IMG/VR virus record: IMGVR_UViG_3300025712_000040
Location: 1 to 23,224 of that record
From: a virus
Strand: one strand, 5' to 3'
DNA length: 23,224 bases
The notes below the pieces were generated by a model, which saw nothing but the letters and a program-made list of their open reading frames with translations, was not told where the DNA came from and did no database searches. Positions 7,275 through 22,629 of the stretch are shown here, piece by piece (within the stretch, counting starts at the first letter, position 1; the number at the start of each line of letters is the position of its first letter). The position numbers were made by a program, and so were the translations under genes.

Positions 7275-7282
7275 TATAAATA
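7275..7282 (+). promoter_or_regulatory. T4-type late promoter before gp8
   Basis: Exact TATAAATA two bases after the gp7 stop codon (TGA, 7271-7273). The predicted start near 7288 gives a leader of about 24 bases that contains the ribosome site AGGAG (7301-7305) and the ATG at 7312. Confidence 0.75.
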
Positions 7283-8794: not shown

Positions 8795-11700
8795 ATGGAG
8801 AAGACTGATCTAAATGTATCGCCATATTACGATGACTTTAACGAAAGTAAAAAGTTTCATCGTGTATTATTCAGAGCAGGTAGACCGATACAAGCAAGAG
8901 AACTTACACAGGCACAGTCCATATTACAGAACCAAATCGAAAGATTTAGTGATCATGTATTTGAGGAAGGGTCTATTGTTCTTGGAGCACAATCGGATGC
9001 AGACTTCGAGTACCATTATGTAAAAGTCAAAAACACTAACCCAGAATCACTGGGTACTGCAGACGTCGAAAGTTATAGAGCAAGTTTCCACGATAAGTAT
9101 TTACAAGGTGGAACTACAGGAATCGTCGCAAAAGTTGTTAACTCTACAGCAGAAACAACTGACGATTCACTGACTCTTTTTGTCAAATACCTTGCAGCAG
9201 GTACTGACACCAACAACTCTCGATTCTTTGATGCTCTAGAAGTATTGTCCGAAGTGACAGTAGGATCTGATGGTTCTATTACTTCAGCATCAAACAATAA
9301 TCAATTCCAAGTTGAATCTGAAGATAAGGTTCCAACAGGAAGAGGTTCAGCAGCAGCAATCTCAGAAGGTATCGTCTATGTAAGAGGATACTTTGTTAAG
9401 GTGGACGCACAAACAGTTATCTTGGAGAAATATTCTCCAAGACCATCTTATAGAATTGGTTTAGATATCACAGAATCCTTAGTCTCAAGTGCTAATGATT
9501 CTACACTCCTAGACAATGCACAAGGATCATCTAATGAAAATGCTCCAGGTGCCGATCGTCTTAAAATAGATTTTAATTTTGCTAAGAAAGGATTAACAAC
9601 TACCACTGATGTCAACTTTATTGAATTGTTAAGAGTCAACAATGGTATAATCGAAAACAAAGTTAGCAATACGAATTACAGTGAAATCGAAAACACATTG
9701 GCAAGACGAACCTTTGATGAGTCTGGTGATTATGTGGTACAACAATTCACTACCTCGTTGAGAGAACATCTAGACGATGGTACAAATCGAGGATATTATT
9801 CTGAAGCGAATGGTGGAGACAGTACAAAATTTGTCGTACAAGTTTCCCCAGGAAAAGCATATGTAAAAGGATTTGAGATAGAGAAAACAGCAACGACTCC
9901 TGTATCAATACAGAAAGCAAGAACAACTCAATCCTTAACTGCTGCAAATACTCCTGTTCGTATAGGAAATTACCTCAAAGTCACAGATGTACATAGTGAA
10001 CCTGAGTTTGGTAATGAGTCAGGTGATGATACACAAGCACCATACAACTATGTGAAGTTGTGGGATACTGCGATTGCTACTCCAGGAACTGCACCTTCTA
10101 GCATACATATTGGTTATGCTCGTGTAAGAAACTTTGATCATCTAAGTGGCACATCTTCAACTGTAGGCAACTATGGTATCTACGATCAAACGGATAATTT
10201 CCAGATGTATCTTTTCGATGTCAAGATGTTTACAAAGATTACTTACTCAGGAAAGACTGGTACTTTTAGTGCTGGTGACCAAGTAAGAAACGCAGACAAT
10301 ACCAAATCAGGTATTGTAGCATATGATGCATCTAGCAATCTATACTTACATGATGTTGTAGGTAATTGGGATGATGCAGATTCAGTGACTTCTTATGGTA
10401 CTGGATCTGGTGCTATATCTGCAGGGCAAAATACAGCAACAAGAAATTATAACATCGATAGAGTAAGAGGTGTTTCTCAAGTTCCGAATAACTCGGCAAG
10501 AGAAACCTTTACTGCTGATGTTGTTACAGATAATGACTTTATCCTAACAGGAACAGTATCACTTACGAGTGGTTCTACAACTGTGACAGGGTTTGGATCA
10601 TTATTTAGTACAGAACTCAAAGAGGGAGATATCTTAGTTGACTCAGCAGGAAACGAAAGAATCGTTTCTTCAATCGCAGGTGACACTTCACTTACATTGT
10701 CTTCAACTGCAGGTTCAACACAAACAGGTAATATCACTCGAAGAAGAACTAAGATTTACAATCAAGAACAAACAGTTGCTATCACATCATGGGCAAGAGA
10801 CTATGTATCTAACCATACACCTGATCAATTATCAGTTAGAAGGCAAATAGTAGATACAGTAGCATCCCAACAGATAGCAATCGAAACTCAAACAGGGGAA
10901 ACCTTTGATACTATTACAGCAGATAACTTTATTCTTGCTGTAGTAGAACCTGCTGGTGGTGGAAACTTAAACGCAGGTGATATCATAGATGTATCTGATA
11001 ACACAAACAACATTACAACTGCTATTACAACTTCAGGATCACAGCAAACATTAACGATCTCAGGTTTTGATGCTGCAGATGATGGTGCAATTTTAAAAGT
11101 CACCTACACTGTTGATATCAACTCCCCACAAAATAGAGACAAAAACTTAAAATCTGCTAGAGTATTGAAAGTAGGAAGTGCCAGAACTGCTGGTGGTTTC
11201 TATGGTACAGCATATGATGACAAAGAAATCACATTAGGTGTATCCGATGCTTTCAAACTAAGAGCAGTCTATGAGGGTGTAGATGGTGCCGATGCTATCA
11301 CTCCTTCTTTCACAGTCACACAAACTACTTCTGCTGGATTTGATCAAGGTGAAGTCATCGTAGGTCAAACTTCAGGTGCAAGAGGTGTGATGATTAACTA
11401 TGGTGGTACAGGAAACACTTCTTATTACTACCTTACTTCGACAACTGCATTTACTGATGGAGAATCTATTATCGGTTCAACATCTACAGCAGCAGGAACA
11501 TTGGGTTCCTTAGATGCAGGTTCAAAAGTTATTACAAACAACTACTTCTTTGACGATGGTCAAAGAGATGGTTTCTATGACTTAGCAAAAATCGTTAGAA
11601 AACCTGGAGCACCTGCTCCTGTTTCACCTGTGATGGTGGTGTTTGATTATTTCACATCATCAGGTTCTGGTGATTTCTATGATGTCAATTCTTATAATGG

Positions 11701-14700
11701 TATTGACTATGATGAAATTCCTCAGTATATTTCTAACAGAGTAGATCCTGAGTCATTAGAACCAGATGGAGAATATGAATTAAGGGATGCTGTTGATTTC
11801 AGACCATCTCTTGGGCAGATATTAGGTACAACAACATTTAGTACCTCAACACCTGATCCTAGTTCACCTGTAGACTTATCTAATTCTACAAGTGGTGCTG
11901 TTCGTGCTCCATACTATTACGAAAACAAATCATTTGAATCATCCACTACAGGAGTCACAGCATCTGGTGCATCTATCGTTGATATGCTAGTACCAGGATC
12001 CAATGTTGTTGGTGATTTAACTTTCTATGTTGGTAGAATAGATAAACTGTATCTACATAAGACTGGTTCATACCAAGTCGTTCATGGTACACCATCTTTA
12101 TCTCCAACTAAACCAGCACCCATCGATGATGCTATAGAATTATTTGAGTTCTCACTCAAACCTTATACAGAATCTCTCGATGATGTCGTGATCAAATCAC
12201 AAGACCATAGACGATATACAATGAAGGATATCGGCAAACTTGCTGATAGAGTTAAGAATCTAGAAAGGGTAACAACACTTTCTTTACTTGAAAAAGATAC
12301 TCAATCAATGCAAATAATTGATGGTGATGGATTTGATAGATTTAAGTCTGGTTTCTTAGTAGACAATTTTAGAGGTCATGGTGTTGGTGATGTAAACCAC
12401 CCTGACTATAGAGTAGCAATAGATGCGGAAGAGGGTAGTCTCAGACCAATGTCTGTTTCTAACTTCTTTGATATTAGTTTAGACACTACAAACTCAGCAA
12501 ACTATGTAAGAACAGGTGATCTTATCACTTTACCATTTACACAAGTTTCTTTTATTAATCAAAGCAAAGCAACAAAAGCAATTAATGTAAACCCATATAA
12601 TGTGTTTGCCTTTGTGGGTACTGTACGACTATCTCCAGGAAGTGATGTATGGAATGATACAAGTACACTCCCTGCAATTAGAGTCAATAGAGAAGGAAAC
12701 TTTGACACAGTATTAGCAGGCAATGCCAATTCATTAGGTACAGTTTGGAATAACTGGCAGACAACATGGGTTGGTCAACCCAATAATTCAGGAACAGATA
12801 CGATTACAAATCGTGCAGGTTCATGGGAAGGAACTCCAGGACAAGGTGGTCGTTGGGTTCCAGGTGCTAGAACTACAAGAACAATTACTGAAACTCCAGA
12901 AACACAAACAAGATCTGGTATTAGAACTTCTGTTGTAGAAGAATTTACTGAAGATAGAAACACAAGAACTGTTGGTATCAGTATCATACCATTTATTAGA
13001 TCACGTGATATTACAGTCACAGGTGATGGATTTAAACCTAACACAAACCACTTCGTATTCTTTGATGGTATTGATGTAGACTCTTTCTGTACTCCAGGAA
13101 GTTCTACCTATTCACAAACAGGAAGTGCGTCTTTGGGTGCAGGTGTTAAGTCTGACCGATCTGGTGATATATCCTTTACATTTAGCATACCAAATAGTTC
13201 AGCACAAAGATTCCCTACAGGAGAAAGAACTCTACTAGTTACTGCGTCTTCAACTCAGTCTATAGATTCTGATTCTAAAGGGCAAGCATCATATAGTGCT
13301 AGAGGATTATTACAATCTAACCAAACAACAATTACTTCTACTAGAAATGGTAGAGTGGTACAAGAAAGACAAACAGGATCAAGGTCAATCACTCGTAGAG
13401 GTGAAGAACTTAACCAAGTTGAATTTGATGTACAAGCACCTCCTGTGCCTGTGCGTGCACCTTTGCCAATACCTACACCTCCAGCACCTGTGGTGCCTGC
13501 GATAGTAGAACCTGTTTTACCACCAAGAAGATTACCAGCACCAATAGTTGCTCGAAGACTACCTATCAGAATGAACCAATTTATGGGTCAGATACAGTTA
13601 GATGGTGGATGGAGAGACCCACTTGCTCAATCATTTATGGTTGAAGCAGATGGTGGTATGTTTGTATCATCTGTTGATCTATACTTCAAAACCAAAGATG
13701 ATTCATTACCTGTGAATGTAGAAATCAGAAACATGGTTAATGGATATCCTGGTCAAATAGTATTACCATTCTCATCAGTATCATTGAAACCAGCAAGTGT
13801 GAATACATCTGCTGATGGTTCAACAGCAACAACCTTTAGTTTTGAATCTCCAGTGTACTTAGAAGATGGAATAGAATATTGTGTGGTTGTACTTTCTAAC
13901 TCTAACAGTTATGAAGCATTCGTATCTGAGATGGGTGGAACAGATTTAATTACACAAGAAGTGATTGCTGATCAACCATATGCTGGTGTATTATTCAAAT
14001 CACAAAACGCATCAACATGGTCTGCTGAGCAATTAGAAGATCTTAAGTTCAATTTAAAACAATGTGCTTTCCACAGTGATTTAAGTGGTACAGTTAGATT
14101 TAACAACGATGCACTAGACACAACAACATTAGGATCTGCTCCTATATCATTTATATCTGGCAACAGCAAAATTAAAGTTGATCATTATTCACATGGCATG
14201 TATGATGCTAGTGGTAATGTCACTCTGACAGGTATCGTAGGAGATAGAACCAACTCAGTGTTGACCATCACGAACCCATCTGCAGTTGGTTCTGGGTCAC
14301 TCCCTGCTGATGGTACTTATGATGACATCGCAACTACGACTTCTGGATCTGGAACAGGTGCAACAGTCAAAGTGATTGTCGCATCAAGTGCTATTAGTTC
14401 TTGGAAAATTAAAAACCCTGGATCTGGGTATGATGCTGCTGATACACTCACAGTGACTAACTTTGGTTCTGCTACAAACAGCACAACCTTTGCGATTGAT
14501 ACTGTAGGTGATACTTTGGGTGGATTCCCTATCGCAGCATTGAATGCAACCTTTACAGCATTGACTGATATAGAAATAGATTCATACACTGTAACACCTG
14601 ATGTTTCTGCATACGACTTAGTTGGTTCTGCGATTGAAACTTCTAAAGGTGGAGGAACTGCAGTAAAAGCAACACAAGATTATTACTTTGATACATTACA

Positions 14701-15439
14701 CACAATGATACCATCTCTAACATTTAAAGATACATCATTATTATGTAATGTACGAACAACACCTGCTAAATCACCAGAGGGTGTGATTAATGGTACACAG
14801 TACTCTAGAAACAGTACATCTTCATATATTGCCTTAAACGATAATGTCTTCTTCGCTGATGGACAAATGATCGCTTCTGGTATAAATGAAAATAACGAAA
14901 TGTCAAATGCGAAATCATTTACATTACAATTGTCATTACAATCATTTAATAACAACCTATCCCCAGTGATAGATTTAAGTACAATTGGTTGCTTGGCAAT
15001 ACATAACAGAATTAACAATGTAGATACTTCATCCGATGTTGGATCTTACAGCACATTCTCTGATAGCACTGAACCTGAAGGAGATAACAATGCTATGGTT
15101 TACCTCACCAAGAGAGTAAACCTCAAAACTCCTGCAACTGCTATTAAAGTAATGGCAGATATCTTTAGAAATAATTCTAACGATGTCAAACTCATGTATA
15201 AAGTTTTAAGAAACGATGAGTCTTTACCTTTTGATGAAATAGGATGGACATACTTCAATACAAATGGAAGTCCAGATATTACAGTAGAGGCAGATTCTAG
15301 AAACTTTAAAGAGTATGAATACACTGTAAGCAACATTGCTGAGTTTACTGCTTTCGCAATTAAAGTTGTAGGACAAGGTACAAAAACAACTGAGATACCT
15401 ATCATGCAAAACTTTAGAGCAATAGCACTCGCAACATAA
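8795..15439 (+). CDS. Giant DUF4815-type baseplate/virion protein
   Basis: A 2214-residue protein. The N-terminus has the DUF4815 signature as I know it: FHRVLFRAGRPIQARELTQA, QIERFSDHVFEEGSIV, then IVYVRGYF (193-200), LDNAQGSS and APGADRLKIDF. Further landmarks are YELRDAVDFRPSL (about 1000), IIPFIRSRDITVTGDGFKPN with FFDGIDVDSFC (about 1390-1430), a proline-rich hinge (1548-1590), and DPLAQSFMVEADGG with VDLYFKTKDDSLPVNVEIR (about 1605-1645). Internal beta modules such as FDQGEVIVGQTSGARG repeat those of gp7. No membrane segment or catalytic site is visible. In related marine phages this gene follows gp8 and is annotated as a structural protein. It probably extends the baseplate rim or carries fibres, a role T4 gives to gp9/gp10. 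The ribosome site GAGGA lies six bases before the ATG. Confidence 0.85.
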   Translation: MEKTDLNVSPYYDDFNESKKFHRVLFRAGRPIQARELTQAQSILQNQIERFSDHVFEEGSIVLGAQSDADFEYHYVKVKNTNPESLGTADVESYRASFHDKYLQGGTTGIVAKVVNSTAETTDDSLTLFVKYLAAGTDTNNSRFFDALEVLSEVTVGSDGSITSASNNNQFQVESEDKVPTGRGSAAAISEGIVYVRGYFVKVDAQTVILEKYSPRPSYRIGLDITESLVSSANDSTLLDNAQGSSNENAPGADRLKIDFNFAKKGLTTTTDVNFIELLRVNNGIIENKVSNTNYSEIENTLARRTFDESGDYVVQQFTTSLREHLDDGTNRGYYSEANGGDSTKFVVQVSPGKAYVKGFEIEKTATTPVSIQKARTTQSLTAANTPVRIGNYLKVTDVHSEPEFGNESGDDTQAPYNYVKLWDTAIATPGTAPSSIHIGYARVRNFDHLSGTSSTVGNYGIYDQTDNFQMYLFDVKMFTKITYSGKTGTFSAGDQVRNADNTKSGIVAYDASSNLYLHDVVGNWDDADSVTSYGTGSGAISAGQNTATRNYNIDRVRGVSQVPNNSARETFTADVVTDNDFILTGTVSLTSGSTTVTGFGSLFSTELKEGDILVDSAGNERIVSSIAGDTSLTLSSTAGSTQTGNITRRRTKIYNQEQTVAITSWARDYVSNHTPDQLSVRRQIVDTVASQQIAIETQTGETFDTITADNFILAVVEPAGGGNLNAGDIIDVSDNTNNITTAITTSGSQQTLTISGFDAADDGAILKVTYTVDINSPQNRDKNLKSARVLKVGSARTAGGFYGTAYDDKEITLGVSDAFKLRAVYEGVDGADAITPSFTVTQTTSAGFDQGEVIVGQTSGARGVMINYGGTGNTSYYYLTSTTAFTDGESIIGSTSTAAGTLGSLDAGSKVITNNYFFDDGQRDGFYDLAKIVRKPGAPAPVSPVMVVFDYFTSSGSGDFYDVNSYNGIDYDEIPQYISNRVDPESLEPDGEYELRDAVDFRPSLGQILGTTTFSTSTPDPSSPVDLSNSTSGAVRAPYYYENKSFESSTTGVTASGASIVDMLVPGSNVVGDLTFYVGRIDKLYLHKTGSYQVVHGTPSLSPTKPAPIDDAIELFEFSLKPYTESLDDVVIKSQDHRRYTMKDIGKLADRVKNLERVTTLSLLEKDTQSMQIIDGDGFDRFKSGFLVDNFRGHGVGDVNHPDYRVAIDAEEGSLRPMSVSNFFDISLDTTNSANYVRTGDLITLPFTQVSFINQSKATKAINVNPYNVFAFVGTVRLSPGSDVWNDTSTLPAIRVNREGNFDTVLAGNANSLGTVWNNWQTTWVGQPNNSGTDTITNRAGSWEGTPGQGGRWVPGARTTRTITETPETQTRSGIRTSVVEEFTEDRNTRTVGISIIPFIRSRDITVTGDGFKPNTNHFVFFDGIDVDSFCTPGSSTYSQTGSASLGAGVKSDRSGDISFTFSIPNSSAQRFPTGERTLLVTASSTQSIDSDSKGQASYSARGLLQSNQTTITSTRNGRVVQERQTGSRSITRRGEELNQVEFDVQAPPVPVRAPLPIPTPPAPVVPAIVEPVLPPRRLPAPIVARRLPIRMNQFMGQIQLDGGWRDPLAQSFMVEADGGMFVSSVDLYFKTKDDSLPVNVEIRNMVNGYPGQIVLPFSSVSLKPASVNTSADGSTATTFSFESPVYLEDGIEYCVVVLSNSNSYEAFVSEMGGTDLITQEVIADQPYAGVLFKSQNASTWSAEQLEDLKFNLKQCAFHSDLSGTVRFNNDALDTTTLGSAPISFISGNSKIKVDHYSHGMYDASGNVTLTGIVGDRTNSVLTITNPSAVGSGSLPADGTYDDIATTTSGSGTGATVKVIVASSAISSWKIKNPGSGYDAADTLTVTNFGSATNSTTFAIDTVGDTLGGFPIAALNATFTALTDIEIDSYTVTPDVSAYDLVGSAIETSKGGGTAVKATQDYYFDTLHTMIPSLTFKDTSLLCNVRTTPAKSPEGVINGTQYSRNSTSSYIALNDNVFFADGQMIASGINENNEMSNAKSFTLQLSLQSFNNNLSPVIDLSTIGCLAIHNRINNVDTSSDVGSYSTFSDSTEPEGDNNAMVYLTKRVNLKTPATAIKVMADIFRNNSNDVKLMYKVLRNDESLPFDEIGWTYFNTNGSPDITVEADSRNFKEYEYTVSNIAEFTAFAIKVVGQGTKTTEIPIMQNFRAIALAT
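13436..13567 (+). repeat. Proline-rich hinge in the 2214-residue protein
   Basis: Residues 1548 to about 1590 contain 16 prolines, with units such as PVPVRAPLPIPTPP and PAIVEPVLPPRRLPAP. It joins the FFDGIDV-containing body to the conserved DPLAQSF C-terminal part and probably acts as a stiff or extended linker. Confidence 0.8.
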
Positions 15440-17284: not shown

Positions 17285-18664
17285 ATGGCAGATGATATCT
17301 ATGTAAATATCGGGAGTAACTTCCAACAGCCATACACGGCATTCAGACCTATACAACAACCTGCGACCAGACCTGCATCTGGACAAAGACCAGCAAATCG
17401 ACCTGCTCAACAAGCATATGATGCTACAAGACCAGCAACAGGAACTGTACCTCTACAAGCAACAAGACCTGCGAATGGTACCAGACCTGCAACAGGGCAA
17501 ACTCCAGCACAAACACCTGCTACAAGACCAGCCAATGGAACAAGACCTGCAAATGGAACATATCCATTTCAACAACCTTATGCATTCCAGCAACCTTTTC
17601 AGCAGAACTATAGTTTTCAACAACCTTTTCAGCAACCTACACCTGCTCAGCAACCTTCAACTAGAACGAGTGTAAGACCTGCGTCAGGTACAGCACCATA
17701 TCAAACACCGAAAGGTGCTGCGCAAGCACCTTATCAGTTTCAGCAACCCTTTACTCAACCATATCAGAGAACAAACCCTGCTCTCGTGAGCACCTATGCT
17801 GTACAAGCAAATGTAGGTTTACCGAGATCTACTGTAACATTAGCATCTCCATTTGGTCAAAGCAATACACCTATTCAAGCACAATTAAATAAGGGTGACA
17901 CTCTTAATTGGCAAATGGGTCCGCAAGGTTACTTCGCAGGAGATGCTCAAGATGGTGAGTTTGATTTGATTGCTCAAACTCCAGCAATTGCAAACACATA
18001 CCTTATCTCTGGTGCAACAGCAGTTCCTGAAGGATCATACCAATTTACTGCAGGAACTTCAGGTCCATATGGTTTCCAAGTTAATTGGAGTATGGAAGAT
18101 GAAACTTTTGAACAAGGAGACAGTGAACCAAGTCCTGAATTCTATGATGCAAGTAACACATTAAATGCTCAGGCAGCAACGATTAATACAACTTTCCAGA
18201 CAGCATCAACTAGACCTATACAGGCACAAAGACCTGCTACTCGTCCTGCTAATGGGGTAAGACCTGCAAATGGTACATATCCATTTCAACAACCTTATGC
18301 TTTTCAACAATCTTATCAGCATACATATCAAACACCATATCCATTTCAGCAACCTTATAGTTTTCAACAACCTTATGCATTCCAGCAACCATATGCGTAT
18401 CAACAAACCTATAGTGCTCAGAGACCAATACAACAAGCATATCAGCAAGCATATAATTTTCAGCAGACATATCAAAACCCTGCTCAACAACCATATTCTG
18501 CGACTAGACCTATAGGTCCGATAGCGAAAGCAAAGGGAGTATATATAAATCAGGGTGGTACAATTAGGAAAGCACAAGAGATCTATGTGAATGATCCAAC
18601 TGCTCCTGCTAACGACATTAGTAAAATACACCAGACTGTACCAACCCCACAGTTTAATTTATAA
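17285..18664 (+). CDS. QQP/RPANG repeat protein with central folded domain
   Basis: A 459-residue protein of strange composition, dominated by Gln, Pro, Ala, Thr, Tyr and Phe. Residues 13-167 are repeats of RPANGT/RPATG and YPFQQPYAFQQPF type. Residues about 168-300 are a normal beta-rich domain (LNKGDTLNWQMGPQGYF, VPEGSYQFTAGTSGPYGFQV). Residues 305-408 return to the same repeats, including TYPFQQPYAFQQ again. The C-terminus (GVYINQGGTIRKAQEIYVND) has the 'YVN.GGT' motif found at ends of marine phage structural proteins, and the N-terminus begins MADDIYVNIG, a similar short unit. This argues for a virion protein. The repeats could be an extensible or sticky fibre, a phase-separating segment, or a scaffold for modification. 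No catalytic motif is seen. The ribosome site AAGGA precedes the ATG. The stop codon overlaps the start of a 59-residue gene by one base. Confidence 0.75.
   Translation: MADDIYVNIGSNFQQPYTAFRPIQQPATRPASGQRPANRPAQQAYDATRPATGTVPLQATRPANGTRPATGQTPAQTPATRPANGTRPANGTYPFQQPYAFQQPFQQNYSFQQPFQQPTPAQQPSTRTSVRPASGTAPYQTPKGAAQAPYQFQQPFTQPYQRTNPALVSTYAVQANVGLPRSTVTLASPFGQSNTPIQAQLNKGDTLNWQMGPQGYFAGDAQDGEFDLIAQTPAIANTYLISGATAVPEGSYQFTAGTSGPYGFQVNWSMEDETFEQGDSEPSPEFYDASNTLNAQAATINTTFQTASTRPIQAQRPATRPANGVRPANGTYPFQQPYAFQQSYQHTYQTPYPFQQPYSFQQPYAFQQPYAYQQTYSAQRPIQQAYQQAYNFQQTYQNPAQQPYSATRPIGPIAKAKGVYINQGGTIRKAQEIYVNDPTAPANDISKIHQTVPTPQFNL
17321..17785 (+). repeat. N-terminal QQP/RPANG repeat block
   Basis: Encodes residues 13-167 of the repeat protein: first a RPANGT/RPATG half, then a FQQPY/FQQPF half. 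DNA copies vary at third positions (CAACAA, CAGCAA, CAACAG), so the protein pattern is conserved beyond simple slippage. Confidence 0.85.
18197..18508 (+). repeat. C-terminal QQP/RPANG repeat block
   Basis: Encodes residues 305-408. It repeats the order of the first block: RPANG units, then TYPFQQPYAFQQ, then many YxFQQPY units. A stretch near 18260-18300 is almost identical to one near 17543-17583, which points to segment duplication or exchange between the two blocks. Confidence 0.85.
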
Positions 18665-18843
18665 TGGAAAAATCAACATCTTTAACTAATAGTCAAACTT
18701 ACATTGATGTTCTAAAAGCAGAATCTGATAACGAAGAAGATCTTCGTGGTGCCATGGCACTCTTTGAACCTAAAGAACCAAGAATCAAAACTGCTATTAT
18801 AGAACGAGGATTTTATAATGACAGAAAGGATACCAGCAGTTGA
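18664..18843 (+). CDS. 59-residue peptide before the radical SAM gene
   Basis: A small gene whose ATG overlaps the TAA of the QQP protein by one base (TAATG) and whose TGA lies 26 bases inside the radical SAM gene. The product begins MEKSTSLTNSQTYIDVLK and ends RGFYNDRKDTSS; it is rich in charged residues, with an acidic stretch SDNEEDL at 21-27 and a more basic second half. There is no cysteine, signal peptide or membrane segment. No own ribosome site is seen, so it would rely on coupling. The open frame fills the gap exactly, and the gap is otherwise unexplained. It could be a precursor-like substrate or partner of the enzyme that follows, a small virion part, or a leader reading frame. Function unknown. 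Confidence 0.6.
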   Translation: MEKSTSLTNSQTYIDVLKAESDNEEDLRGAMALFEPKEPRIKTAIIERGFYNDRKDTSS

Positions 18844-19741
18844 TCAATATGGTTTCTTAGAGCATCGTAGAGAACAAGAACGAAAGCACTTCGAAAAGCA
18901 TCACAATCAACTTGACAAACCCTTATCTTCAATACTTACAATAGAGATTAATACCACAGAGTTGTGTAATAGAACATGTGTGTTTTGTCCTCGTCACGAT
19001 CCAGAAGTATTCCCAAATAGAAATTTACATCTAACAATCAAAGGTGCACAGATCATCGCAGAAGAGTTAGCAGAAAATAATTACAGTGGTAAAATTTCAT
19101 TTAGTGGGTTTGGTGAGAACTTACTCAATCCAGATTTTAGAGATATCGTTAAAATTTTCAGAACAGAGTTACCTTATGCTACATTAGAATGTAACACTAA
19201 TGGTGATAAGTTAGATCATAAGTATCTAGTAGATCTTATTCACAATAACGGATTAGATTTAATTTACATTAATCTTTATGATGGTCCAGAACAGATGGAA
19301 CATTTTGATGAGTTAATTCTTTGGGCAGAGATTCCTAGAGACAAATATAAGTATCGGATGCATTGGGGTGATTTTGAAAAACATGGATTGATACTCAACA
19401 ATAGAAGTGGTGTGATCGATTGGGTTGGTATCGAAGAGTCCGACATCAAATCTCTACAAGGTAAACCATGCCACTATCCTTTCTATAAAATGTTTGTAGA
19501 TTGGAATGGGGATGTGTTGTTTTGTTCAAATGATTGGGGTAGAGAACATGTCGTAGGAAATCTTTTACAATCGTCATTACATGATGTGTGGTTTAGTAAA
19601 CCCATGAAAAAAATAAGAAACAAATTAAGAAAAGGAGACAGAAGTCAATCCCCTTGCAACAAATGCAGTGTAGACGGATCACTCTTTGGCAAACCAAGTT
19701 TTGACTTGATAAACAAATATGAAGATAGCAATCACAGGTAA
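18818..19741 (+). CDS. Radical SAM enzyme with Twitch/SPASM-like tail
   Basis: A 307-residue radical SAM protein. The cluster motif CNRTCVFC (Cys50, 54, 57) is the canonical CxxxCxxC that binds the [4Fe-4S] cluster and S-adenosylmethionine. GFGE (97-100) stands where the family has its GGE motif, preceded by the beta strand KISFS. The C-terminal part has Cys218, Cys236, Cys280 and Cys283, in KPCHYPFYKMFVDWNGDVLFC and SPCNKC. This is the SPASM/Twitch pattern, and four cysteines suggest one auxiliary cluster. Family members modify peptides and proteins or small molecules by radical chemistry. The start has GAGGA seven bases upstream. It overlaps the SDR gene by 23 bases. An enzyme of this type inside a tail-fibre region is unusual. 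The substrate is unknown; a virion protein or the adjacent peptide are inferences. Confidence 0.88.
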   Translation: MTERIPAVDQYGFLEHRREQERKHFEKHHNQLDKPLSSILTIEINTTELCNRTCVFCPRHDPEVFPNRNLHLTIKGAQIIAEELAENNYSGKISFSGFGENLLNPDFRDIVKIFRTELPYATLECNTNGDKLDHKYLVDLIHNNGLDLIYINLYDGPEQMEHFDELILWAEIPRDKYKYRMHWGDFEKHGLILNNRSGVIDWVGIEESDIKSLQGKPCHYPFYKMFVDWNGDVLFCSNDWGREHVVGNLLQSSLHDVWFSKPMKKIRNKLRKGDRSQSPCNKCSVDGSLFGKPSFDLINKYEDSNHR

Positions 19742-20294
19742 AAGTGGACTCGGCAAAAAACTAGCAGAGTATCTAGAACAATTTAGTTATATTAAGATAG
19801 TTGCCTTTTCGAGTAAAGGAACTTCTATTGAGAATGTGGATGAAGTCATATCGAAAGCAAAAGACTGTGATGTTTTTATAAACTTAGCACATCTTCGCTT
19901 CCGACAAACTGAATTGCTACATGCTATCTTTAATGAATGGAGACATGACCCTAAGAAACTAATTATTAACATTTCATCTAGAGCAGCAGAACCCAATATC
20001 TCAAAGGGTTATCTTTATGCTGCACAGAAAGCATCATTAAACCATTTAGCAAGCAACTTAACTTACAATTCGACTAAGAGATGTAGAATATCTACACTCA
20101 ATCTAGGACTCTTAGAAGATCCAGATCTGGACTCTTTATCTCATGATTATGTAATACAAAAAATTCATGAGATTATAGATACTGATGTAAACATAGAAAT
20201 CCCTGAGTTGACTATTCAACATTCAGCAAACTACAAAGAAGTGCAAAGTATGAAAGAAGCACTACGAGATATAGAAGATTATGGCGAAAAATAG
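19719..20294 (+). CDS. Short SDR-like NAD(P)-dependent oxidoreductase
   Basis: A 191-residue Rossmann protein. The N-terminus has TGKSGLG (6-12), a short glycine-rich nucleotide-binding loop after beta strand 1. INLAH (54-58) lies where SDRs have NNAG. The catalytic pattern is NISSRA (84-89) and YAAQK (100-104), giving Ser86/87, Tyr100 and Lys104 as the likely triad. The protein is shorter than a usual SDR (about 250), with a reduced C-terminal substrate region. It overlaps the radical SAM gene by 23 bases and the next gene by 14 bases. Extended SDRs often act on nucleotide sugars, so a role in sugar or side-chain chemistry is possible, but the substrate is not visible. Confidence 0.8.
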   Translation: MKIAITGKSGLGKKLAEYLEQFSYIKIVAFSSKGTSIENVDEVISKAKDCDVFINLAHLRFRQTELLHAIFNEWRHDPKKLIINISSRAAEPNISKGYLYAAQKASLNHLASNLTYNSTKRCRISTLNLGLLEDPDLDSLSHDYVIQKIHEIIDTDVNIEIPELTIQHSANYKEVQSMKEALRDIEDYGEK

Positions 20295-20898
20295 ATTTTG
20301 GGATGCTAAAGATTTCTGGATGTTTTCTATTGAAGGCAAGAAAGGAGAAGTCTATACTCCCAACACTCATCTACCCCAAAAAGGCAGAGAACTAGAACAA
20401 AGACATAGCAACTTTAGATGTGTCATTGGTGGCACTATCGTTAATGAGATGGATGCTCCAGCAGCAGATGGTTCTGGTGTCACACGTCGTGTGCATGCAC
20501 ATGGGTGGAATAACATAAACTATTTTAGGCAATTAGACCCTAATCCATTTCAAGGAACTCCTTCTTGGCCAGGATACACAGGCACTTCGATTAAGTGGAT
20601 GTTCCAAGATGATGCGATGTCACTCTGCGTATTGGCAAACCCTAAAACAATGCGTGATGTAGAATGCGTATGGGACTTTGCTCAATTACAAAAAGGTGAG
20701 TACATCAGATTGAAACATCCTGGCAAACGAGTTTGGGTGTTTGCTTTACATGGAAAAGTAAAGATACTCAATCGTGGAAGATATAAAGATAGTGATGTAA
20801 TAGATTCTATAAACTTTATTACTATTTCAGGAAACAAAGATTACGATATACAAGGCAGATCTTCAGATAACATGGTTTGTGTGGTATCTGAATTATGA
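20281..20898 (+). CDS. Beta-domain (cupin-like) protein, paralogue 1
   Basis: A 205-residue protein related to the next gene. Shared features are NTHLPQKGRELEQRH (28-42), HGWNNINYF (74-82), PNPFQGTPSW (88-97) and VWDFAQLQKGEYIRL ... VWVFALHGKVKI (130-162). The last part looks like the end of a small beta barrel: 'L.KGEYI.L ... V.V..L.GKV.I', as in cupin/RmlC-type folds. Histidines 72, 74 and 30 could bind metal, but a classic cupin metal motif is not evident. It overlaps the SDR gene by 14 bases and the next gene by 4 (ATGA). It may be an enzyme, a ligand-binding protein or a tail attachment part. Confidence 0.7.
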   Translation: MAKNRFWDAKDFWMFSIEGKKGEVYTPNTHLPQKGRELEQRHSNFRCVIGGTIVNEMDAPAADGSGVTRRVHAHGWNNINYFRQLDPNPFQGTPSWPGYTGTSIKWMFQDDAMSLCVLANPKTMRDVECVWDFAQLQKGEYIRLKHPGKRVWVFALHGKVKILNRGRYKDSDVIDSINFITISGNKDYDIQGRSSDNMVCVVSEL

Positions 20899-21485
20899 AA
20901 TGGCAATGGTACAACTACGACGATGTCTTAGTATTTGATAACCATGCTAAAGTAGATGAGTTCTATCAAGTAAACACTCATCGATTCGAGGAGGGTAGAG
21001 AAGGTGAACGACCAAGTTCCGCAATTCATATATTTACTGAGAGGCATGATGTCCTTTTTGGAAAAGACTCTCATAGTTTTGGTGTTGCTCCTAGTGGTTG
21101 GTGTAACATACATTATGCTAATACAGGTCTCAAACCAAATCCTATGCCAGGAAGACCATGGTATCCTAACCACACTGATGCATCCGAAGTTAGGATGCAC
21201 TTTATAGACGGAGGACATCTTTACTGCATTCATCCTAAGCATAAGATGCAAGAAAAGGAACTTGTGTACGATTATGCCACTCTACAAAAAGATGAATACA
21301 TCAAGATCGGCAACATGGGTGGAAATATACATATCTTTATAGCAAAAGGACGTGCTCAAATTAATGACAACCATGTTAAGGGGTTTGAATACTGTAGAGC
21401 ATCATCTGGTAAAGACATTACCATACGAGCAAAGAATGAAGTCATGGTTGCTATTATAACTGAAATCAATAATGATACCAAATAG
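20895..21485 (+). CDS. Beta-domain (cupin-like) protein, paralogue 2
   Basis: A 196-residue paralogue of the preceding gene. Matching segments are NTHRFEEGREGERP (27-40), GWCNIHYANTGLKPNPMPGR (68-87), and VYDYATLQKDEYIKIGN ... IHIFIAKGRAQIN (124-157). It is rich in histidine (about 13), including DSHSF, NIHYA and MHFIDGGHLYCIHPKHK, so metal or ligand binding is plausible. The start overlaps the previous stop (ATGA), and the end overlaps the next gene by 14 bases. Divergence between the two copies is high, so they probably have different roles or form a hetero-complex. Confidence 0.7.
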   Translation: MKWQWYNYDDVLVFDNHAKVDEFYQVNTHRFEEGREGERPSSAIHIFTERHDVLFGKDSHSFGVAPSGWCNIHYANTGLKPNPMPGRPWYPNHTDASEVRMHFIDGGHLYCIHPKHKMQEKELVYDYATLQKDEYIKIGNMGGNIHIFIAKGRAQINDNHVKGFEYCRASSGKDITIRAKNEVMVAIITEINNDTK

Positions 21486-22266
21486 AATTAGTAAAACATA
21501 TAAATGTGAAACCTTTACAGTCGAAAGATCTATCTTAGACAAAGGTTATGTTACCAGATACTCTGCTCCGACTGATCATGCATTAGAAGCAACTCATCCT
21601 GTAGACAGAGAAGAACTTTGGAAACACATCAAACAGATCTATGCCAAACATTTAAAAAAGACAGACATAACTGAGCAAGAAGTTTGGGATACAGTCAAAG
21701 AGTGGGATCCTATCTTTTACAAATCTTTAAAGATGATGGATGATGGCAACTTAGTCCACAATAAAAGGATACACATATATACAAAAGGTGAAATAGAAGT
21801 CGTTGCTATAGACAAAGATGGCAATCCTTCAGATTATGAGTTAGATAAAGAAAATCCAGGACATATAGATAAGAGAGGTGATCATAATGTAAGCAAAGTT
21901 GATCGCATACCGAAGATTAACATAGAAAACTCTCGAAATGAAAATCCCGAAGAGATGTATCATGTGACCACAACTTCTTTAGTTGATGGTTCAACTATAA
22001 ATTGTATCTCTAATAATTACAATCCTCAAACTTTACCCACCCCATTTGACTTCTGGAAATATGATGTACATGTACTTGAACCTGAAGATTTCGTGTATAT
22101 TAGACCTGAAGGTGAAAAATCTGTGCTACTATTGTTAGATGGTACCATAGATATAAACAATAAAGAATATGAAGGTGTGCAAGAGTTTAATGTCTCGAAA
22201 GAGTCGCGAACTACTGCGAAAACACCTGTAATTATGTTATTTGGAGCACAGCAATACAACCTCTAA
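21472..22266 (+). CDS. Third related beta-domain protein with N-terminal extension
   Basis: A 264-residue protein. The C-terminal 75 residues (FDFWKYDVHVLEPEDFVYIR ... SVLLLLDGTIDIN, 192-229) follow the same 'W.Y ... L...D.V.I ... V.L.L.G.I.IN' pattern as the two genes before it. The N-terminal half is different: helical, charged, with LWKHIKQIYAKHLKKTDITE (49-68) and WDTVKEWDPIFYKSLKMM, then a linker rich in Asp, Gly and Asn (115-160). It overlaps the preceding gene by 14 bases and ends the overlapping chain. No known enzyme motif was recognised. It could supply an oligomerisation or docking part for the other two. Confidence 0.65.
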   Translation: MIPNRISKTYKCETFTVERSILDKGYVTRYSAPTDHALEATHPVDREELWKHIKQIYAKHLKKTDITEQEVWDTVKEWDPIFYKSLKMMDDGNLVHNKRIHIYTKGEIEVVAIDKDGNPSDYELDKENPGHIDKRGDHNVSKVDRIPKINIENSRNENPEEMYHVTTTSLVDGSTINCISNNYNPQTLPTPFDFWKYDVHVLEPEDFVYIRPEGEKSVLLLLDGTIDINNKEYEGVQEFNVSKESRTTAKTPVIMLFGAQQYNL

Positions 22267-22269
22267 TTG

Positions 22270-22277
22270 TATAAATA
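22270..22277 (+). promoter_or_regulatory. T4-type late promoter before short fibre genes
   Basis: Exact TATAAATA just after the stop of the cassette. The predicted start near 22283 leads into a short leader with TAAGGAAC (22283-22290) and the ATG at 22297. It separates the enzyme cassette from the next fibre-type genes. Confidence 0.72.
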
Positions 22278-22296: not shown

Positions 22297-22629
22297 ATGG
22301 CATCAATCTCAAATCTTTATGTGGATCAAGGATCCGACTTTAGTTTCACTGTTGACTTAACTAACAGTGATGGTTCAGTCATGGATTTAACTGGATACAC
22401 TGGAGCAGCAGAGGTTAAAAAATCATATAGTAGCAGTTCTGCAGCAGCAACATTTAATGTGGTAGTGACTGAAGCAAGTGGACAATTGACTTTAGAACTC
22501 ACTGATACACAAACTGCAGCATTGGAATATGGAAGATATGTCTATGACTGTGTCATCACAGCATCTGGAGGGGATAAGACCAGAATAGTTGAAGGACAAG
22601 TTATAGTTACACCTGGAGTCACTGTATAA
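22297..22629 (+). CDS. Small Ig-like virion protein (BppU-like pattern)
   Basis: A 110-residue protein: NLYVDQGSDFSFTVDLTNSD, then MDLTGYTGAAEVKKSYSSSS, then LELTDTQTAALEYGRYVYDC and VEGQVIVTPGVTV. This pattern of short beta strands, with the 'DLTGYT' turn and the 'A.L..GRYVYDV' strand, is frequent in marine phage structural proteins and resembles the N-terminal domain of baseplate upper proteins (BppU family). It is probably one Ig-like beta sandwich, a structural or docking domain. It has its own late promoter. Its TAA overlaps the next ATG by one base. Confidence 0.75.
   Translation: MASISNLYVDQGSDFSFTVDLTNSDGSVMDLTGYTGAAEVKKSYSSSSAAATFNVVVTEASGQLTLELTDTQTAALEYGRYVYDCVITASGGDKTRIVEGQVIVTPGVTV

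Follow-up and report, generated by a model that had tools for sequence, protein, structure and literature searches.

The conserved unit in this stretch of viral DNA is a pair of genes encoding a BtrN-like radical SAM protein (rSAM) and an SDR-like protein (SDR), not the six-gene block in which the pair lies. The two enzymes probably form a sugar or cyclitol redox module for remodelling of host-surface glycans, for which we infer the substrate, the order of steps, the target glycan and the purpose. The window, meaning the whole stretch analysed, comes from a marine T4-like virus and is a 23,224-base fragment in IMG/VR.

Gene block and flanking genes

The block and its surroundings comprise the following features.

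8795 to 15439, plus strand: VrlC-like baseplate protein, the left edge marker of the host-recognition region, with tblastn matches to VrlC-annotated proteins of cyanophages and pelagiphages
17285 to 18664, plus strand: QQP-repeat tail gene, left neighbour of the block, followed directly by LtfC in relatives
18664 to 18843, plus strand: p59, an ORF of 59 aa without cysteine and without a family match
18818 to 19741, plus strand: rSAM, a BtrN-like radical SAM protein with C50, C54 and C57, a four-cysteine Twitch domain (C218, C236, C280 and C283) and R196, the equivalent of BtrN R152
19719 to 20294, plus strand: SDR, an SDR-like protein of 191 aa with an invariant YxxxK (Y100, K104) and SS (S86-S87)
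20281 to 20898, plus strand: B4, a beta protein, possibly of cupin or pirin type, and a paralogue of B5
20895 to 21485, plus strand: B5, an all-beta protein, bicupin-like in a low-confidence model
21472 to 22266, plus strand: B6, a protein of 264 aa whose C-terminal part is marginally related to B4 and B5
22270 to 22277, plus strand: TATAAATA, a T4 late-promoter-like motif between the block and LtfC, also present at the empty site of relatives
22297 to 22629, plus strand: LtfC-like fibre-assembly gene, right neighbour of the block (Pfam LtfC, 4.3e-07; phrog_3304, L-shaped tail fibre assembly)

The ORF coordinates confirmed the architecture described in the first-pass annotation, with overlaps of 26, 23, 14, 4 and 14 bases from p59 through B6, a one-base overlap between the QQP gene and p59, and baseplate and fibre-type genes on both sides in the same direction. 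The VrlC-like upstream gene encodes 2,214 aa and also matches a gene of Methylophilales phage Melnitz.

A BtrN-type radical SAM protein

That the second gene encodes a radical SAM protein with Twitch/SPASM-type cysteines was borne out by Pfam matches to SPASM (5.6e-14) and Radical_SAM (9.2e-11), both above the curated cut-offs. The only PDB sequence match in a profile search was BtrN (E 5e-22, about 25% identity), an enzyme that carries out a two-electron alcohol oxidation and has a fully ligated auxiliary cluster (PMC9012708). The predicted rSAM model (pLDDT 78, pTM 0.83) aligned with BtrN over 235 residues at Z 22.3, the next family following at Z 15.6; peptide-modifying SPASM enzymes are among its structural relatives at Z 13-16. 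All matches to NCBIfam maturase models were far below cut-off.

The residues expected of such an enzyme are in place. The cysteines of the CxxxCxxC motif are invariant in 78 of 78 homologues, the Twitch cysteines align with those of BtrN, and all of these cysteines together with R196 are kept in 76-78 of the 78, R196 itself in 77. The BtrN counterpart of R196, Arg152, is reportedly an active-site residue; their correspondence rests on the alignment and not on the model, since model pLDDT falls under 50 at residues 185-200. BtrN F188 and E189 correspond to S237 and N238, directly after the second Twitch cysteine and next to the auxiliary cluster. From these replacements the rSAM substrate is probably not DOIA and is expected to differ from that of BtrN, and F188 and E189 would be substrate-specific rather than family-defining. 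Within the radical SAM family, similarity is a poor guide to fold or function, and enzymes that resemble each other in their Twitch fold carry out widely different reactions; membership of the family therefore does not fix the chemistry (PMC6231123). The best reading is that rSAM is a BtrN-type Twitch radical SAM protein, for which oxidation of an alcohol to a ketone is predicted by analogy.

The SDR partner and the conserved pair

The proposal of an SDR-like third gene also held: the match to Pfam adh_short (2.1e-05, 24.5 bits) lies just under the cut-off of 26.6, and in an alignment of 14 members the catalytic residues S86-S87, Y100 and K104 are invariant. The same alignment has an N-terminal motif TG.(S/T).L, as against the classical TGxxxGxG nucleotide motif.

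One scan confirmed 309 viral stretches related to rSAM. Among the best 80 of these plus the window, SDR follows rSAM in 77 of 81 loci, and in the other four the contig ends within 221 bases (three loci) or within 845 bases (L018). The reverse search with the SDR family found rSAM in 77 of 80 loci, the remaining three contigs beginning less than 300 bases upstream; the rSAM-found and SDR-found locus sets have some contigs in common. The two genes overlap in 66 of the 77 paired loci, by 26 bases in 43 and by 23 bases in 11, so the overlap belongs to the pair and is not peculiar to the window locus. The six genes had been taken to form one unit, a view contradicted by relatives that keep rSAM and SDR without p59, B4, B5 or B6. 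In a cultured-phage collection, rSAM relatives occurred in eight records only, all under 31% identity, and SDR and DNA searches gave no matches.

The pair occurs in at least three settings away from tail genes (A, B and C), near genes of DNA metabolism. It adjoins a 5'-3' exonuclease-like gene in T4-like phages, or lies near DNA polymerase, lysozyme and Hsp20-like genes, or near PhoH and helicase genes, the gene names being assigned partly by eye. Two sequences filed as bacterial MAG sequence (L127, L128) resemble exonuclease-setting phage contigs. In 27 viral loci, a GT8-like gene, rSAM, SDR and a GT29-like (sialyltransferase) gene run end to end, the GT8-like gene ending at the start of rSAM and the GT29-like gene starting at the SDR stop. 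The majority of viral copies of the pair have no adjacent glycosyltransferase, and none was found within the window, a 23-kb genome fragment.

Several other genes accompany the pair. In the DNA-polymerase setting, a gene directly upstream of rSAM (L031:8777-9910) matches the defence-system protein Druantia DruA (Pfam, 1.4e-08), and the DruA-matching gene cluster is present in about 18 loci. Extra genes within or after the pair encode an AAA-type P-loop protein (L003:10915-11349) and, judged by eye and with no Pfam match, a possible sulfotransferase (L263:2002-2637) and a possible 2OG-oxygenase (L073:10902-11441).

Insertion at a tail-gene junction

Forty relatives were fetched with the VrlC end as query. 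In all 33 loci where both homologues were visible, the QQP gene was followed by LtfC 8-20 bases later, and none contained the block. The motif TATAAATA stands just before LtfC, exactly in 18 of 35 loci and as near-matches in most others; in the window it stands before LtfC at 22270, after B6. The block thus lies between the end of the QQP gene and the late-promoter-like motif. The window has three copies of TATAAATA, at 631-638, 7275-7282 and 22270-22277 (+), a number within chance, although their placement, on the coding strand and shortly before a gene start each time, is suggestive. A scan for sigma-70 promoters and terminators gave no excess over shuffles.

The tail-located form is confined to the window and two close contigs. 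One (L002/L083) carries p59, rSAM and the start of SDR, and the other (L004/L082) carries rSAM, SDR, B4, B5, B6 and LtfC; since each covers only part of the block, the complete gene order is known from the window alone. Among the tail-module contigs that were searched whole, rSAM was found in L105 alone, far from the tail, and in long T4-like contigs that have both, the pair lies at a great distance from the tail module. In the tree, the window rSAM groups with that of L002 inside the genes of the exonuclease setting (support 99), a setting away from tail genes; this is most simply read as a relocation of the pair to the tail site.

The insertion site has the traits of a host-recognition cluster, lying directly after VrlC, containing fibre genes and varying between relatives; the neck gene gp14, the right boundary of such clusters, lies beyond the end of the window. 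The sections of PMC7029224 on this cluster in pelagimyophages place tail fibres, LPS-type genes and radical SAM cassettes in a hypervariable region located right after VrlC. The tail location would then be a consequence of where the hypervariable host-recognition region lies.

Local passengers

The remaining four genes appear to be local passengers. They are absent from the other loci of the pair; p59 was found only in the window and one close contig (L002, 81% identity), and B5 and B6 each in one other IMG/VR contig, and on these grounds we rejected the six genes as one unit. We also rejected p59 as a peptide precursor, as it has no cysteine and is not conserved with rSAM across contexts. The description of B4, B5 and B6 as three related beta-domain proteins stood for the paralogues B4 and B5 (30% identity), whereas B6 is linked to them only marginally. 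B4 has a weak match to Pirin_C_2 (E 0.18), and pirins and bicupins head the structural list for B5 at Z 5-6, from a model too weak for assignment (pLDDT 49, pTM 0.55). Read by eye, the alignment of B4 with B5 shows no conspicuous metal-binding cupin motif; on the Pirin_C_2 and structural matches, the two may be cupin-like. Searches detected no B proteins in other tail loci and no matches to B4 or B6 in cultured phages. A different cupin-like small protein, recognised by eye, is encoded directly upstream of an LtfC homologue in another contig (L165:4612-4953).

Relatives in bacteria and SAR11

Homologues from bacteria and SAR11 share only 34-58% identity with the phage rSAM and could act on other substrates. 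Downstream of both of the nearest bacterial homologues (L129 and L130) lies a gene related to the phage SDR, incomplete in L129. Gfo/Idh/MocA genes occur in all eight bacterial loci tested, directly beside rSAM in seven, and a DegT aminotransferase gene is beside it in another. Nearby genes in bacterial rSAM loci encode UDP-GlcNAc 2-epimerase, cytidylyltransferase, a DAHP-synthase-like protein and an acyltransferase, and the GT8-like family (36% identity) is also present in five such loci, with one member near the Glyco_transf_8 cut-off.

Among 385 genomes sampled from the class to which a Rhodospirillaceae-labelled relative belongs, only 4 had rSAM at E<=1e-40, but in the family of a Pelagibacteraceae genome 36 of 297 had it. 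SAR11 rSAM clusters contain NeuB, NeuC, CDP-glucose 4,6-dehydratase and sugar nucleotidyltransferases, and full SDRs abut rSAM in about 12 of 30 SAR11 loci. Several clusters also encode DHQ-synthase-like proteins, hinting by analogy at a cyclitol pathway as in butirosin biosynthesis. Three of these proteins, below the AroB cut-off, are encoded at L205:7458-8567, L206:7142-8251 and L211:13728-14837.

Relation to known systems

BtrN, the 2-deoxy-scyllo-inosamine dehydrogenase of butirosin biosynthesis, shares with rSAM the Twitch fold, the positions of the four-cysteine auxiliary cluster, R152 and an NR.G motif, but the window rSAM has an N-terminal extension of about 30 residues, an SDR partner and a phage location, and does not keep F188/E189. 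Bacterial glycan clusters, including those of SAR11, place the same rSAM family beside an NAD(P)-type oxidoreductase; in many this is Gfo/Idh instead of SDR, and the SAR11 SDRs are full-length (about 240 aa) compared with 191 aa in the phage. The literature also notes phages rich in radical SAM genes (PMC5332604). Campylobacter phages carry a BtrN-annotated radical SAM gene (30% identity), but in CPt10 and WX1 (contigs L123 and L124) several radical SAM genes are clustered with amidinotransferase and aminotransferase genes, and no SDR partner is annotated. The host-recognition cassettes of pelagimyophages resemble the window in the region after VrlC, the tail fibres, the LPS-type genes and the radical SAM cassettes, whereas the cluster sections of PMC7029224 describe no rSAM-SDR pair, no kinship to BtrN and no presence outside the region. 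Radical SAM cassettes in the host-recognition region are already known from those sections; our literature search found no paper describing the rSAM-SDR pair.

Proposed role and alternatives

As in BtrN, rSAM would abstract the hydrogen on the carbon that bears an alcohol group, and its auxiliary cluster would take up an electron to give a ketone. SDR, with NAD(P)H, would then either reduce the ketone, so that the overall result is an epimerisation, or work at an adjacent position. Glycosyltransferases of the phage or the host would transfer the resulting building block to the host surface polysaccharide, and the coat so changed during infection might, for example, exclude other phages. In the window virus, the pair would be cargo in the hypervariable host-recognition region, with no action on the tail. 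A sugar or cyclitol as the substrate of a BtrN-like oxidation and an SDR reaction fits the glycan contexts of both bacterial and viral copies, and use on host-surface glycans would be in line with the view of LPS genes in the host-recognition cluster given in the corresponding sections of PMC7029224.

The first-pass annotation had proposed a modification or ligand-synthesis system serving the tail. A Twitch/SPASM-type enzyme with an SDR does make modification or biosynthesis likely, but service to the tail found little support. We consider it distinctly unlikely that the block modifies a tail component (the QQP protein, a fibre or p59) by radical chemistry or sugar attachment and so serves host recognition directly. 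Its position between fibre-type genes, the end-to-end overlaps, the recurrence of p59, rSAM and SDR together in L002, and the structural kinship to peptide-modifying SPASM enzymes would agree with such a role. Against it stand the 33 junctions with QQP and fibre homologues that lack the block, the tail-module contigs searched whole, which lack rSAM save for the distant copy in L105, and the pairs that elsewhere adjoin exonuclease, DNA polymerase, PhoH or glycosyltransferase genes. A lack of linkage to fibre genes in relatives, named beforehand as refuting the proposal, was largely what we observed. The suggestion of a peptide or protein substrate fares no better, as the nearest solved enzyme acts on a cyclitol, the bacterial relatives lie in surface-sugar clusters, and no conserved precursor peptide was found beside rSAM across contexts, SDR alone being common to them.

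DNA hypermodification is frequent in T4-like phages, and settings A, B and C, near 5'-3' exonuclease, DNA polymerase, PhoH and helicase genes, would suit a pair that makes a small molecule for non-glycan use, for example a cofactor, a signalling metabolite or a nucleotide that carries a modification into phage DNA. This is unlikely, since no gene for nucleotide modification or a cofactor was seen to accompany the pair consistently. What recurs in linkage with the pair are glycosyltransferases, and in bacteria the loci belong to surface-sugar clusters. We regard it as very improbable that all six genes are merely cargo, selfish or in decay, with no role in the window virus. A recent relocation, the sharing of the block with two other contigs and the rarity of the neighbouring B genes would speak for it; however, the catalytic residues are all intact and copies from widely differing contexts retain 76-90% identity to rSAM, which indicates strong constraint.

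Beyond the glycan-remodelling module itself, we tentatively suggest that an uncultured, widespread marine phage lineage may carry a dedicated radical epimerase pair, a BtrN-like rSAM with a minimal SDR and in some members a GT8-rSAM-SDR-GT29 operon, which inverts or oxidises a specific host surface-glycan sugar and attaches it. Hundreds of viral contigs have this rSAM family, of which cultured phages hold only distant relatives. The pairing, which is obligate, the operons with glycosyltransferases and the homologues in SAR11 make surface sugars or cyclitols a concrete class of substrates to test for a gene that databases list as an anonymous radical SAM auxiliary gene. If true, radical SAM sugar editing would be a phage coat-switching mechanism, and radical chemistry would be tied to the way in which phages reshape the coats of highly abundant marine bacteria.
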